Positions 951-15,263 of a stretch of DNA of 59,385 bases are shown here, piece after piece (position 1 is the stretch's first letter; every line of letters begins with the position of its first letter). A program made the translations under genes and the position numbers. This DNA is from a virus. The notes beneath the pieces are model-generated. The model had not been told where the DNA came from, searched no databases, and worked only from the letters and a program-made list of their open reading frames with translations. The DNA lies in IMG/VR virus record IMGVR_UViG_3300029309_000033, positions 1-59,385 of that record. One strand, written 5' to 3'.

Positions 951-1931
951 CTAAGCCCCTTTCGTGATTTTTAATTGTTTCGCATATTCTTCTAGTGGCA
1001 CACCTAATTTTTTAGCAATTGTTACTTGAGATGGCGTGAGTCTCACCGTTTTCTGCGACTTATTGTTTACACTTCGCTTTGCTGAAGCTACTGTTTGTGT
1101 TGGTTTAGTCGTTACCGTATCTTCAGTTCTACCAAATTTATGTGGAAAGTCAAGCCTCATACGTTTATCTATTTCAGTATAATACTCATCTGATTGAGCA
1201 TCAAAGCCCTCTTCCTCAGTTAATTTTTTATGTAAATCAAATACAGTGTATGTCATGGCACTATCTGTTCCAAACCAAGGGTTTTTTTCTGCCCATGCCT
1301 CAGCTTTTGGATCAGGTGTTGGTTGTTTAGGTGCCATTGCTTGATCTAATGTTTGAGTCTGAGTTTCTGCAGGTTTAGCTGCAGCTTGTTTTTTTAGATT
1401 AGCAACTCTAGCCTCCTCTACACCTAATCTAGCTATCATTTTTTGTGCCTCTACTTCAGCAGCTACATCGCCTGCCTCTCTAGCTTTAACTAGTTGCGAT
1501 TGTGCAGCTTGTAATCCAGAAACAACTCTGCCCTCCATGGCAGTCATGTAGTTAGGCTCTATCGTAGATAATTTAGTTTTTAAACTTTCTTGTTCTTTTT
1601 GAACTCCCTTAGCATATTCTATGGCAGCTTCTTTTTGTCGTTCTGCTTCACGCCATTTTTTAGTTAGCTTTGCAATTCTTTTTTGAACACCTTCACTATA
1701 ATCTTCTAGTTCTTTTTTCTTTTCTTCTTTTGGCTCTTCTTTTTTTGTTTCTTCTCTTGCATTAATCTCTTCTTCTTTTATTTCTTCGACTTTTATTATT
1801 TCCTTTGGTTCTTCAACTTTTTTATCTTCTTTATTCTCATCAAGGTTTACTTCTACTTCAGGTCCTGAAGTATCTATGTCAACCATTGGTACATTTTTTT
1901 TATTTTCTGTTTCTGTTTCTGTTTCTGGCAT
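951..1931 (-). CDS. Putative capsid scaffold protein
   Basis: 326 aa. The first 95 residues are almost all Glu and Lys (low-complexity acidic/basic), followed by long predicted helices and coiled coil at about 80-190, and a compact C-terminal part ending KKLGVPLEEYAKQLKITKGA. This charged, helical make-up and the place just upstream of decoration and capsid genes are typical of phage scaffolds, which fill the procapsid and leave before DNA packaging. A short basic C-terminal domain would bind the capsid shell. Function is inferred from composition and order. Confidence 0.7.
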   Translation of the reverse strand: MPETETETENKKNVPMVDIDTSGPEVEVNLDENKEDKKVEEPKEIIKVEEIKEEEINAREETKKEEPKEEKKKELEDYSEGVQKRIAKLTKKWREAERQKEAAIEYAKGVQKEQESLKTKLSTIEPNYMTAMEGRVVSGLQAAQSQLVKAREAGDVAAEVEAQKMIARLGVEEARVANLKKQAAAKPAETQTQTLDQAMAPKQPTPDPKAEAWAEKNPWFGTDSAMTYTVFDLHKKLTEEEGFDAQSDEYYTEIDKRMRLDFPHKFGRTEDTVTTKPTQTVASAKRSVNNKSQKTVRLTPSQVTIAKKLGVPLEEYAKQLKITKGA

Positions 1932-4940: not shown

Positions 4941-5332
4941 TATTTTTTTCCTCCTTTAAATATTTGCGTTCCCTTTATACCATAAATACTCGCCACGACA
5001 AGGATCCATAAATTTGTGAACCATGACGGCAGCTGTTGGAACTGTTCAAAAAACTCTTTTATCTTTGCAGACGCTGACGGATCGTCCGAGAAGACCCCGT
5101 ACGCAATCACCAGTATCGGGAGCGTTAACACGACCAACACGAACTCGTCTTTCCAGTCCGATTGTCTAGCTTCTAGTAATTTTCCAGAATATTCTAACTC
5201 ACCGTTTGCCATTTTCTCAGCGTGTTTGGCTTGTGCGTTAGCCATCATCATTTGTGTTTCTTTTTTCTTCTTATAAATGTGCGAACCAGCATTTACTGCA
5301 AGTTTTAGTGCACCTAAAATAGGAAATGCCAT
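4940..5332 (-). CDS. Holin-like protein (3TM, GTA-holin type)
   Basis: 130 aa. A weak hydrophobic N-terminal segment, a charged helix (residues 20-60), then two strong membrane segments (FVLVVLTLPILVIAYGVF and LWILVVASIYGIKG) with a short loop containing DDPSASAKIKEFFEQF. This layout resembles the 3TM holin family found in gene transfer agents and tailed phages. Holins open the inner membrane for the endolysin. It sits six bases before the portal stop, far from the M15 endolysin. Confidence 0.6.
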   Translation of the reverse strand: MAFPILGALKLAVNAGSHIYKKKKETQMMMANAQAKHAEKMANGELEYSGKLLEARQSDWKDEFVLVVLTLPILVIAYGVFSDDPSASAKIKEFFEQFQQLPSWFTNLWILVVASIYGIKGTQIFKGGKK

Positions 5333-10210: not shown

Positions 10211-10438
10211 ATGAGTACAGATAAAAGAATAGTTTATATTAACGGCTTAGAGATAGGTTTTAAAGGTGGCAACACTTTATTAGAACTAATCGATAAAGAA
10301 AAAATCAATATAAAAAAATACGGTAAATCGCTCGAATACCATAAAATCCATTTAGAATATTTAACCAAATCAATTAATAAATATCTGTCACAATGGGACA
10401 ATGTAAAATTAGGAGATGAGGTTCACTATAAAAAATAA
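10211..10438 (+). CDS. Early small protein, 75 aa, unknown
   Basis: First gene of the early plus-strand block, with the standard AAGAAAGGATAAAA box before its ATG. Reads STDKRIVYINGLEIGFKGGN, then a charged helical region ending DNVKLGDEVHYKK. No Cys, no membrane segment. No family recognised; early phage proteins of this size often inhibit host enzymes. Confidence 0.7.
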   Translation: MSTDKRIVYINGLEIGFKGGNTLLELIDKEKINIKKYGKSLEYHKIHLEYLTKSINKYLSQWDNVKLGDEVHYKK

Positions 10439-10448
10439 ATCGAAACGG

Positions 10449-10466
10449 GGGGGCAGTAATGCCCCC
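10449..10466 (+). terminator. GC-rich hairpin after first early gene
   Basis: GGGGGCA and TGCCCCC form a perfect seven-base stem with loop GTAA, 10 bases after the 75-aa gene. No U-run follows, so it may weaken rather than end transcription or protect an RNA end. Confidence 0.45.
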
Positions 10467-10521
10467 TGTCTACATGGGTGGCGGCTGTGTACTGATGAGA
10501 TGCCAAAACAAAAGGATACAG

Positions 10522-10953
10522 ATGAACAAAGAACAAAAAGAAATAATTAAAAGAATAAATAAGGCTTATTCTAAATTATACATTTTAAGTAATATTACAT
10601 GGACACCCCATAGAGACGAATTATTTAAAATGAATAGAAAAGACGAAAAGCAACATAGATTTGGCGATTGGGCTGAATATCATCAAGGCGCAGCTTCAAT
10701 TAATGATTGTGCAAAACTTTTTACAGTAAAACATATTGCGGAAAGTTTATTAAATCTAAATAAATGGGGCGTAAAAGATTTATTAAATATTAAGAAATCT
10801 TGTGTTTATTCTCAATCATTGGTTAATAATTATGGCGATAGAATTAGAGAAGCATGGATTGATGAAGATATAAAATATCTTGCAGATTTAGACTATATTG
10901 CCCTAGTTAACTGGGATTTATATCAAGAGCAAAAAAATAGAAAAATTGCTTAA
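10522..10953 (+). CDS. Early protein, 143 aa, unknown
   Basis: The AAAGGATACAG box fixes the start at 10522 (MNKEQKEIIKRINKAYSK); an open frame continues upstream to 10459 but would read through the hairpin. A soluble alpha-helical protein with aromatic clusters (NITWTPHRDELFKMNRKD, HRFGDWAEYHQGAAS). No known family recognised. Confidence 0.7.
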   Translation: MNKEQKEIIKRINKAYSKLYILSNITWTPHRDELFKMNRKDEKQHRFGDWAEYHQGAASINDCAKLFTVKHIAESLLNLNKWGVKDLLNIKKSCVYSQSLVNNYGDRIREAWIDEDIKYLADLDYIALVNWDLYQEQKNRKIA

Positions 10954-13800: not shown

Positions 13801-14046
13801 ATGAAAGAAGATAAATTATGGGAATGGGACAGTATGATAAATTATTTATACGGTAAAGATGTGGTTGATGCCTACCCAGACGGGTGGAGTTGTATTAGCT
13901 GTGGTGCTGAATTTACTGAAAAAACAATAGATGTTGAGTGTCTTTATGTTATTCACAACAGAGAAGGAACAGAATGTTTAAAATGTGTAAATCAACAAGC
14001 TAAAGGTAGTCATGAACTAACAAAGGTGCGACAATATGGTGCTTGA
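13801..14046 (+). CDS. Early zinc-finger-like protein, 81 aa
   Basis: MKEDKLWEWDSMINYLYGKD is followed by a region with CISCGAEF, then EC, HN and CLKC, consistent with one zinc ribbon. Last gene of the early block before the structured RNA. The early box precedes it. Possible transcription or translation regulator; inferred from the metal site. Confidence 0.65.
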   Translation: MKEDKLWEWDSMINYLYGKDVVDAYPDGWSCISCGAEFTEKTIDVECLYVIHNREGTECLKCVNQQAKGSHELTKVRQYGA

Positions 14047-14083
14047 TATTATAGGATTTTATGTATATTTATAGGACAACCAA

Positions 14084-14436
14084 CAAATAAACATTGCAAG
14101 TTTATTTGGCTTTGTGGCAGAACAACGCTTAAGCGGGTGTAATGCACAGGATCGGAGGGTTACGGGCTAGTGCCTGAAGACACCGAAACTGGTTGTGAGT
14201 ACCGACCATCTATCAAAAAGATACTTGGACGCTTCGGGAAAGCTTGTGGGTGATCTACCAAGATAGTCCCACCAAGCAGGTTAAATAGGTGAGTACGCGA
14301 GTGCTGTATCGATATGGGTGAACCAAAAAAGTGACATTTATATGACCAATAAAGGTTCAACAAAACTCATAGGAGGTGCTATATGCGTCCTTACGCCAGA
14401 TACCCCACCCGAAAGGGTGGGGATACAAAAATCTAA
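14084..14436 (+). ncRNA. Candidate structured RNA, possibly a leader for a 17-aa ORF
   Basis: This stretch is clearly richer in G and C than its surroundings and folds on the plus strand into many helices. CAAATAAAC pairs with GTTTATTTG (14084-14108); GGGC with GCCT around 14164; TATC with GATA (14211-14223). A three-way junction is closed by CTTG/CAAG (14224-14227 with 14273-14276), with arms GCTT/AAGC and GTGGG/CCCAC, the second capped by ATCT-ACCA-AGAT. AGTAC-GCGA-GTGCT has a GNRA loop, TGAACC pairs with GGTTCA (14319-14359), GCGT-CCTT-ACGC follows, and CCCCACCC-GAAA-GGGTGGGG is last. It is not a tRNA, tmRNA, RNase P RNA or group I intron as far as I can see. Confidence 0.65.
14383..14436 (+). 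CDS. 17-aa ORF with perfect Shine-Dalgarno at end of structured RNA
   Basis: AGGAGG sits six bases before ATG, the strongest ribosome site in this half of the genome and unlike the usual GAAAGGATAAA. The ORF reads MRPYARYPTRKGGDTKI and then stops. Two hairpins (GCGT-CCTT-ACGC and the GAAA-capped CCCCACCC stem) are part of its coding sequence. The stop overlaps the end of the convergent 81-aa gene by four bases. It could be a leader peptide whose translation is controlled by the RNA fold, or a tiny effector. Function unknown. Confidence 0.5.
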   Translation: MRPYARYPTRKGGDTKI

Positions 14437-14678
14437 AGTTTCTTCTTAACAGATCCCATTTTCCAAGATTGCTGCGTTGATAGTTCTATAACAAGTCTAT
14501 GACTTTCTCTTGCGCCAATAATATTATTTTCAAATAAACTTATTGAGAGAATATCAAATTGACCGTCTGGTGAATGAAACTCGCCTTGTGGTAACTTAAC
14601 AACTACTCTCGCATCTTGACATGTGGGGGACTTTAAAAACCTGTCTAATTGTCTAGCTAATTCTTTCGCATTAATCAT
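14433..14678 (-). CDS. Protein of 81 aa next to TerS, unknown
   Basis: MINAKELARQLDRFLKSPTC, then DARVVVKLPQGEFHSPDGQF: one helix followed by a beta-rich part, ending WKMGSVKKKL. It is read away from terS from a shared 33-bp inverted repeat. No family recognised. It is the only minus-strand gene between the early block and terS, so it may be separately controlled, for example a regulator of the divergent pair. Confidence 0.65.
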   Translation of the reverse strand: MINAKELARQLDRFLKSPTCQDARVVVKLPQGEFHSPDGQFDILSISLFENNIIGARESHRLVIELSTQQSWKMGSVKKKL

Positions 14679-14682
14679 GTAT

Positions 14683-14715
14683 TTGACATTTAAAGTTATT
14701 TGCCGTAAATGTCAA
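14683..14715. promoter_or_regulatory. 33-bp inverted repeat between divergent 81-aa gene and terS
   Basis: TTGACATTTA (14683-14692) and TAAATGTCAA (14706-14715) are perfect inverted arms spanning 33 bp. Each arm begins with the consensus -35 hexamer TTGACA pointing inward, as in a pair of overlapping divergent promoters or a dimer operator. The region at 33202-33234 has the same total span and nearly the same arms. Confidence 0.65.
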
Positions 14716-15263
14716 GAATGGGTGTACCGAAAAGATTAACAGAAATGCAGAGAAAATTTGCAAACCTTTTAGTATCAAATGAAGGCCGCAAATATGGCTA
14801 TGAGTGCGCCATAGAAGCAGGCTACGAGAAGGATAGATCAAGGCAGACAGCTTATGAACTACAAAACCCTAAATTATATCCATTAGTTGTAAAATATATT
14901 GGTGAGATTAGAGAAGAATACCAGAAGAAATACGAAGTAACTTATGAAAAACATATAACAGAACTAGCAAAAATCAGGGAACAAGCATTAAAGAAGGGTG
15001 CATTCTCGGCAGCTAGTAACGCAGAAGTTGCAAGGGGTAAAGCTGCGGGTCTATATGTCGAACAGAAAATAATTCGAACTGGTAAATTAGACGACATGTC
15101 AAAAGCAGAAATGGAAGAAGAACTAAAAAAGATTATAGACGAATATTCACCTATCTTAGAAAATGTTACTGTTGATGATGTAAAGAAAAATATCGAGAAG
15201 AAAAGATTACCGCGACTTAAGAAAGTTTCGTCAACTTCTTCACCCAAGAACGAGGTATCATAG
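14709..15263 (+). CDS. terS: Terminase small subunit
   Basis: 184 aa. The N-terminal MGVPKRLTEMQRKFANLLVS and YECAIEAGYEKDRSRQTAYE form the helix-turn-helix DNA-recognition fold of Terminase_2-type small subunits. A long helical oligomerisation region follows (REQALKKGAFSAASNAEVAR), then a basic tail. It marks packaging sites for TerL. The first ATG lies inside the inverted-repeat arm; an ATG nine bases later (14718) is an alternative. It sits on the opposite strand from terL. Confidence 0.85.
   Translation: MSRMGVPKRLTEMQRKFANLLVSNEGRKYGYECAIEAGYEKDRSRQTAYELQNPKLYPLVVKYIGEIREEYQKKYEVTYEKHITELAKIREQALKKGAFSAASNAEVARGKAAGLYVEQKIIRTGKLDDMSKAEMEEELKKIIDEYSPILENVTVDDVKKNIEKKRLPRLKKVSSTSSPKNEVS

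Follow-up and report, generated by a model that had tools for sequence, protein, structure and literature searches.

Introduction

The manA RNA (Rfam family RF01745; model length 192, gathering score 55.2 bits) was reported in 2010 as a riboswitch candidate in the 5' UTRs of marine sequences and cyanophages (PMC2864571), and Rfam labels it 'Cis-reg'. The authors describing cyanophage S-CREM1 in 2023 regarded its regulatory role as still to be verified (PMC9964418). A further set of described systems comprises the GOLLD, ROOL and OLE RNAs of phages or bacteria. GOLLD and ROOL are often found near tRNA islands, and many GOLLD RNAs exceed 800 nt (PMC12286853). Intermolecular kissing loops of OLE and GOLLD were supported by loops that change from one palindrome to another (GC versus CG in the case of GOLLD), an argument that was used alongside cryo-EM (PMC12286853).

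Here we analyzed a stretch of 59,385 nucleotides, positions 1 to 59,385 of IMG/VR virus record IMGVR_UViG_3300029309_000033 (hereafter the window). Its plus strand carries at 14084-14279 a conserved structured RNA of about 196 nt, which we term type I and which is best read as a divergent class related to manA. The RNA is a conserved, pseudoknotted, non-coding plus-strand RNA of marine phages. With a probability of about 0.47, we favor the reading that it is an early-made, self-dimerizing and trans-acting phage RNA. The relation to manA, the promoter of the relatives and the palindromic loop are new beyond an earlier note on this DNA.

A structured RNA on the plus strand of the window

The earlier note had described the region 14084-14436 as GC-rich within an AT-rich genome, and its GC content is indeed 45.0% in comparison to 35.8% for the window, with 47.4% for the core 14084-14279. 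Equally GC-rich windows of the same length make up 1.3% for the core and 1.9% for 14084-14436. The plus strand of 14084-14436 folds at -113.8 kcal/mol (z -5.05), with none of 100 shuffles as good, which bears out the proposed structured RNA on this strand; the minus strand reaches z -2.12, with 2 of 100 shuffles as good. Model R1 matches the window solely across 14084-14279, at 192.1 bits, the window being one of the 44 source rows of this model. Conservation begins at the 5' hairpin (14084) and, except in close relatives, stops at about 14279. Of the single RNA previously proposed for 14084-14436, the part 14084-14279 stands, whereas 14280-14436 is a separate module that occurs in a minority of relatives.

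Rfam searches over 14084-14436 gave no match at gathering score; at E ≤ 10 three weak matches were obtained, none of them near its own cut-off. Over the same region, neither Rfam (at cut-off) nor ARAGORN matched a tRNA, tmRNA, group I or group II intron, RNase P or known riboswitch, in agreement with the earlier note, which had seen no fit to these common classes. The Rfam searches likewise matched neither GOLLD, ROOL nor OLE in the window RNA. Two apparent likenesses were dropped. The string AAGATAGTCC near 14262, which we take to resemble P7 of group I introns, has no Rfam match and belongs to a segment whose covariation is that of a hairpin. The strings AGUAC and UGGACGC, presumably those of the 23S sarcin-ricin region, have letters that change in a paired way in relatives. 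Elsewhere in the window, a type II Hammerhead ribozyme was matched at 10438-10508 (+) with 38 bits (cut-off 37), overlapping the end of the ORF 10211-10438 and the start of the ORF 10459-10953.

The region had also been placed just before terS. A terS gene does lie downstream, at 14709-15263 (phrog_51, E 3.5e-10), but a convergent ORF at 14433-14678 (-) separates the two. The packaging RNA of phi29 is a phage RNA that forms loop-loop multimers, and the position of the window copy near terS is reminiscent of it. However, the terS cluster follows the RNA in just 3 of 42 loci classed as non-T4-like (the window, L003 and L011), a rough count that rests, like the other counts of neighboring genes in T4-like and non-T4-like loci, on home-made gene calls and clusters, and for a class in which some loci may be T4-like (e.g., L105, L116, L129, L140, L160 and L165).

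Relatives, hosts and occurrence

A BLAST search of 50,697 phage records returned a single homologue at E ≤ 0.01, in phage 023Pt_psg01, over 14086-14275. Pattern scans of IMG/VR yielded 1, 15, 20 and 81 contigs, and another pattern at least 120. In a profile search, 168 of 174 sequences matched; leaving aside the window and L001, which is its own copy, at least 166 other loci from IMG/VR and GenBank phages remain. Six loci found with a 16-base pattern had no profile match among the 174 sequences and were rejected as chance matches. Since one scan gave at least 120 contigs and the best 80 of 599 gp32 loci were used, the family is larger than counted.

Pelagibacter phage HTVC008M and phage 023Pt_psg01 carry type I RNA and, according to model R1, these two genomes and the window record hold one copy each. 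Where the host is known, phages carrying the RNA infect SAR11. The annotated gp008 of HTVC008M (4993-5163, L179) overlaps the RNA and is probably a spurious ORF rather than a gene. The portal protein of the window shares 69% identity with that of Pelagibacter phage HTVC027P and 61% with that of 023Pt_psg01. Model R1 gave no credible match in HTVC027P (7.5 bits, E 0.8) or HTVC023P. The manA model found none in these two genomes either, which are weak zeros, as the control gave no match and a run with a stricter filter missed HTVC008M too. The type I RNA seems to be accessory in the podophages related to the window.

This patchy distribution among related podophages, together with genomic places that differ between podophages and T4-like phages, might be expected of a selfish or catalytic element, such as a ribozyme or an intron remnant, that travels among marine phages. 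We consider this very improbable, since Rfam matches no intron, ribozyme or retroelement at the site, each of the three genomes holds a single copy, and promoter and position relative to gp32 are kept in many T4-like loci. An origin of the RNA from the host was rejected as well: 84,980 bacterial and archaeal genomes (contigs of at least 3,000 bases) contained no match to one exact type I and one exact type II pattern. In the open-licence PMC literature we found no paper on HTVC008M with noncoding RNA and none on 023Pt_psg01, and broader PMC searches named no pelagiphage or HTVC008M among the matches listed. In the matching passages of PMC12191101, the occurrences of 'manA' are parts of other words, e.g., 'managed'.

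Covariation and fold

From 154 sequences long enough for a full alignment, 73 representatives (<93% identity) were taken for the covariation run, while alignment A1 (44 sequences, <88% identity) is the basis for the counts on a structure of 47 pairs. In the 44 sequences 89.2% of cells are paired and 36 pairs show double changes, with 403 double-change cells, as compared to 68.9%, 26.6 pairs and 131.7 (sd 10.4) cells in 500 shuffles. Controls with slid partners reached at most 51.4%, 24 pairs and 122 cells, a comparison in which the counted structure is favored because it was drawn from the covariation of its own family. The covariation score was 0.533 versus 0.159, and none of 500 shuffles was as high. 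Homologues do contain covarying base pairs, whose lack the earlier note had named as evidence against a functional RNA. Against a tree-based null (40 simulations, 73 representatives), 11 column pairs, the pseudoknot included, lay above every simulated value. Canonical pairs make up 93% or more in ten of them; the exception (58%) belongs to the 5' hairpin, whose register in the alignment is poor.

All elements of the fold lie on the plus strand. The 5' hairpin P1 (14084-14108) exposes the loop ATTGCAA with a palindromic hexamer at 14094-14099; only 51.6% of its cells are paired in the 44-sequence count because of the alignment register. P2 pairs 14111-14114 with 14273-14276 (98.3% of cells paired, double changes in all 4 pairs) and forms the outer closing helix. 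The earlier note had instead drawn a three-way junction closed by CTTG/CAAG, which is not supported, as 14273-14276 covary with 14111-14114. The stem-loop P3 (14117-14145) consists of 14117-14119/14143-14145 (99.2% of cells paired, double changes in 2 of 3 pairs) and an inner part, 14125-14128/14137-14140 (100% and 3 of 4). Its loop (AAGCG, 14131-14135) forms the pseudoknot with CGCUU at 14230-14234, for which 100% of cells are paired, with double changes in two of the five pairs and the other three invariant. The pseudoknot pair 14134-14231 occurs as AU in 38, CG in 29 and UA in 6 of the 73 representatives.

The element 14146-14193 comprises P4 (14146-14154/14184-14193), which encloses the hairpin P5 (14164-14175). 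Among the strongest covariations are 14154-14184 and 14163-14170. The latter pair is standard in all 73 representatives (UA 41, CG 22, GC 10), and its two positions flank one short stem, an unusual pairing that may reflect a tertiary or intermolecular contact. P6 (14195-14243) is built from 14202-14204/14235-14237 (98.5% of cells paired, double changes in 3 of 3 pairs) and a weaker outer part, 14195-14197/14241-14243 (68.9%), around a variable hairpin. The 3' hairpin P8, CUUGUGGGU...GUCCCACC (14246-14272), is paired in 100% of cells, with double changes in two of five pairs and three invariant. It is the part most alike in manA, and in HTVC008M it was aligned to the manA model.

Promoter and genomic neighborhood

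In 139 of 159 loci, the 70 nt upstream of the RNA contain a promoter that departs from TTGACA/TATAAT at no more than two positions, where shuffles predict 6.8 such loci. For promoters with up to three mismatches, the distance from the end of the -10 box to the start of the profile is 11-17 nt in 141 of 149 cases. In the window, a weak sigma-70-like promoter can be read from the sequence at 14043-14071 (+; TTGATA, 17 nt, TATTTA). It has 4 mismatches in 12 positions, is absent from the consensus scan, and our own promoter scan favored another, equally poor site, so that its support comes solely from its position relative to the promoters of relatives. One of these, L014, has TTGACA at this promoter.

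The genes behind the RNA differ and include convergent genes, terminators, a tRNA, gp32, purL and transaldolase; outside the T4-like group there is no consistent downstream gene. The 20 annotated genes within 3 kb of the RNA in 023Pt_psg01 all lie on the opposite strand. Six of the 42 non-T4-like loci, 023Pt_psg01 included, have a convergent gene from a single cluster, with 5-6 nt between its end and the RNA, and nine have a terminator behind the RNA. For T4-like loci, gp32 lies on the same strand within three genes in 103 of 125, and no terminator was found within 150 nt behind the RNA in any of 111. Between the RNA and gp32, a late-promoter-like word, either TATAAATA, which we take to be the T4 late promoter consensus, or the also-allowed TATATATA, occurs in 96 of 97 loci (13.4 expected). 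In three cyanophages, manA is followed on its own strand by a gene at a distance of 15 nt (P-SSM2), 27 nt (P-RSM6) or 99 nt (P-SSM3). In cyanophage S-CREM1 (10215-10429; L368 1216-1430), manA is separated by 1 nt from tRNA-Leu on one side and overlaps tRNA-Asn by 1 nt on the other, a position inside a tRNA island that fits a processed, free RNA.

These neighborhoods bear on the view that the RNA is a cis-acting leader or riboswitch that responds to a metabolite or protein and thereby regulates what follows it, namely the gp32 operon in T4-like phages and the tiny ORF with its terminator in podophages. Such a role would agree with the labeling of manA as 'Cis-reg' and as a 5'-UTR riboswitch candidate (PMC2864571) and with the frequent same-strand gp32. 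In addition, 12 podophage-type loci have a tiny ORF that is followed by a GC hairpin and whose ribosome-binding site is directly preceded, or overlapped, by a helix (recognized by eye or by folding). Given that no terminator was found in 111 T4-like loci, and given the three same-strand cyanophage genes, a leader role might apply, chiefly in T4-like phages. However, the downstream genes are diverse, a late-promoter-like word intervenes before gp32 in nearly all loci, the window itself has a convergent ORF next, and the tiny-ORF module also occurs without the RNA core (L387). The promoter directly in front, the sites without a same-strand gene and the 5' palindrome likewise sit badly with the label of a 5'-UTR riboswitch candidate. 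In some phages the neighborhoods are hard to explain by a cis-acting switch, and we regard a leader as less likely than the favored reading.

A tRNA neighborhood as a general feature was rejected. Among 60 loci scanned, a tRNA was found in two (L169 and L094) and a tmRNA in nine, none of them podophage loci. The tmRNA loci (L046, L093, L169, L107, L138, L162, L270, L288 and L325) all carry type I or type II RNA, and three of the nine, which were scanned with Rfam, showed a permuted tmRNA match.

Relation to manA and to a type II RNA

The manA model did not match the window copy, and the podophage copies tested likewise gave no match. For HTVC008M, manA was the sole Rfam family matched at E ≤ 10 (25.9 bits, E 5.6e-5), and type I RNAs of some T4-like phages scored between 24.9 and 35.6 bits, below the gathering score. 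The E-values were 1.3e-5 for L046, 3.1e-4 for L028, 0.013 for L169 and 0.019 for L100; the type I copies L093, L094 and L173 had no match. In one search manA was matched in 4 of 7 type I contigs at E ≤ 0.1 and in another in 3 of 35 records at E ≤ 1, which makes the link to manA weak for an individual copy; the counted matches sit exactly on the RNA. A 20-bit match in L031 was discarded as false, as it falls inside the gp32 coding sequence; manA scores near 20 are therefore unsafe alone.

A second group of RNAs, type II, is usually located upstream of gp32, like type I, and a pattern scan found it in 103 contigs. Six type II loci were compared with manA. Pelagibacter phage Mosig (64 bits) and L220 (55.9) exceed the cut-off, L239 (53.4), L234 (44.8) and L272 (44.7) remain below it, and L208 has no match. 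In Mosig, the RNA precedes a rubrerythrin gene, which in turn precedes gp32. Model R1, run on 82 sources (mostly gp32 loci, of which the best 80 of 599 were used), detected type I strongly in 13 cases and type II weakly in two, the latter upstream of gp32 (L220 with 24.8 bits, L239 with 20.4). At E ≤ 1 it missed two of four type II gp32 loci, and Mosig reached just 10 bits. Upstream sequence of 900 nt or more was available for 68 gp32 loci: type I (by R1) is present in 12, type II (by pattern) in 4 and neither in 52. Among 35 type II sequences, paired columns covary and the order of helices, judged by eye, is similar to that of type I.

Type I and manA share the 5' hairpin, the outer closing helix, P3 with CUGAA...UAAGG and the 3' hairpin CUUGUGGGUA...AAUCCCACC, as well as their occurrence in T4-like marine phages. 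Of four cyanophage manA copies, three are immediately preceded by a promoter with 0-1 mismatches, and the fourth is the one in the tRNA island. Unlike manA, type I has a palindromic 5' loop, is also found in podophages and occupies sites without a downstream same-strand gene. Differences in sequence, judged by eye, extend over P4-P6. These comparisons underlie our classification of type I as probably a divergent manA-related class, a class that ties manA to the cultured SAR11 phages HTVC008M and Mosig.

The palindromic 5' loop and a putative mode of action

The loop of P1 keeps one of four palindromes, TTGCAA, TTCGAA, TGTACA or CTGCAG, in 152 of 154 aligned sequences; two lack them. At the hexamer 14094-14099, the palindrome is perfect in 143 of 154 and is shifted by one base in 9 more. 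Elsewhere in the alignment, palindromes peak at 64% and 62%, in two stretches that are nearly constant. Mapped by parsimony onto a tree of the remaining RNA, the loop shows 18 state changes, 13 of them between TTGCAA and TTCGAA plus one ambiguous; this number comes from a single tree without support tests and would be inflated by recombination of the hairpin. Each switch between TTGCAA and TTCGAA requires two base changes. Among type II loops, 101 of 106 contain the palindrome TAATTA or TTATAA, and one of the four cyanophage manA loops (P-RSM6, TGATCA) has a palindromic hexamer.

A six-nucleotide palindrome kept through about 13 GC/CG switches suggests the signature of a kissing dimer, and the switches are alike to those of OLE and GOLLD. 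A covarying palindromic loop, as used for OLE and GOLLD, is present in type I (152 of 154, one tree). Type I is smaller than GOLLD, and an oligomer of it is predicted from sequence.

Alternatively, the 5' hairpin might be a DNA operator dyad that is bound by a dimeric repressor behind the promoter, so that only the rest would be functional RNA. The spacing of 11-17 nt between the -10 box and the profile is a usual operator distance, the dyad is centered in the stem in 95 of 152 sequences, and a DNA dyad would also give palindromic loops. On the other hand, the palindrome is off-center in the remaining 57, in 53 of them by one unpaired base, and the manA model has a 5' hairpin at this position as well. 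Moreover, the hexamer alternates among four palindromes, whereas we would expect an operator to keep its sequence. An operator is therefore improbable in our estimate.

According to the favored reading, a self-dimerizing RNA that acts in trans, host RNA polymerase would transcribe the RNA early from the sigma-70-type promoter directly in front. The 5' hairpin loop would then pair with its counterpart on another copy of the RNA in a symmetric kissing interaction, and the RNA would work as a homodimer or as part of a larger RNA assembly. It may act in trans on a component of host or phage rather than as a switch of one neighboring gene. In podophages like the window, the transcript would be closed by a variable module in which a helix and a ribosome-binding site precede a tiny ORF and a GC hairpin. 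The palindromic loop gives a concrete prediction, namely dimerization. More tentatively, and in our view doubtfully, manA and type I may form one superfamily of trans-acting, self-assembling phage RNAs instead of riboswitches. They would then resemble the GOLLD and ROOL assemblies in kind but on a smaller scale, occur in two groups of SAR11 viruses that are unrelated to each other, and be made early by the host polymerase in order to seize or shield a host component. If the favored reading is right, a widespread phage RNA family is filed under the wrong kind of mechanism.

A variable 3' module with a tiny ORF

In the window, the variable 3' module spans 14280-14436 (+) and contains the helix 14313-14319/14365-14371. 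The AGGAGG at 14371-14376, the 17-codon ORF MRPYARYPTRKGGDTKI at 14383-14436 and a GAAA hairpin at 14403-14422 are as the earlier note had described them, and 14380-14436 folds with z -4.05. In the 12 podophage-type loci, the RNA is succeeded by the helix and the ribosome-binding site, then by the tiny ORF and the GC hairpin. In nine of them the GC hairpin is a terminator with a T-run; the hairpin of the window, which corresponds to an intrinsic terminator in some relatives, is without a U-run. Rfam searches of the 3' module in 16 loci gave no match at gathering score.

The ORFs of the module differ, with MRPYARYPTRKGGDTKI, MRPYTRYP, MEPP and MVIVIIITY as examples. In L011, one base turns codon 10 into a stop inside the hairpin, and the ORF of L084 ends as MRPYTRYP-stop. 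An exact pattern of the tiny ORF was found in six viral contigs, five of which carry the RNA. The sixth, L387, has promoter, helix, ribosome-binding site, tiny ORF and terminator at 1380-1610 (-) but, according to R1, no RNA core, which makes the 3' module an independent unit. On the basis of L011, L084 and L387, the tiny peptide was dropped as a conserved product. The proposal that the RNA controls translation of the 17-aa ORF was not upheld either, as most of the at least 166 other loci have the RNA without the ORF. In L042, L087 and L173, tiny Ile/Val-rich ORFs (MVIVIIITY-like) lie between helix and terminator and recall attenuator leader peptides.
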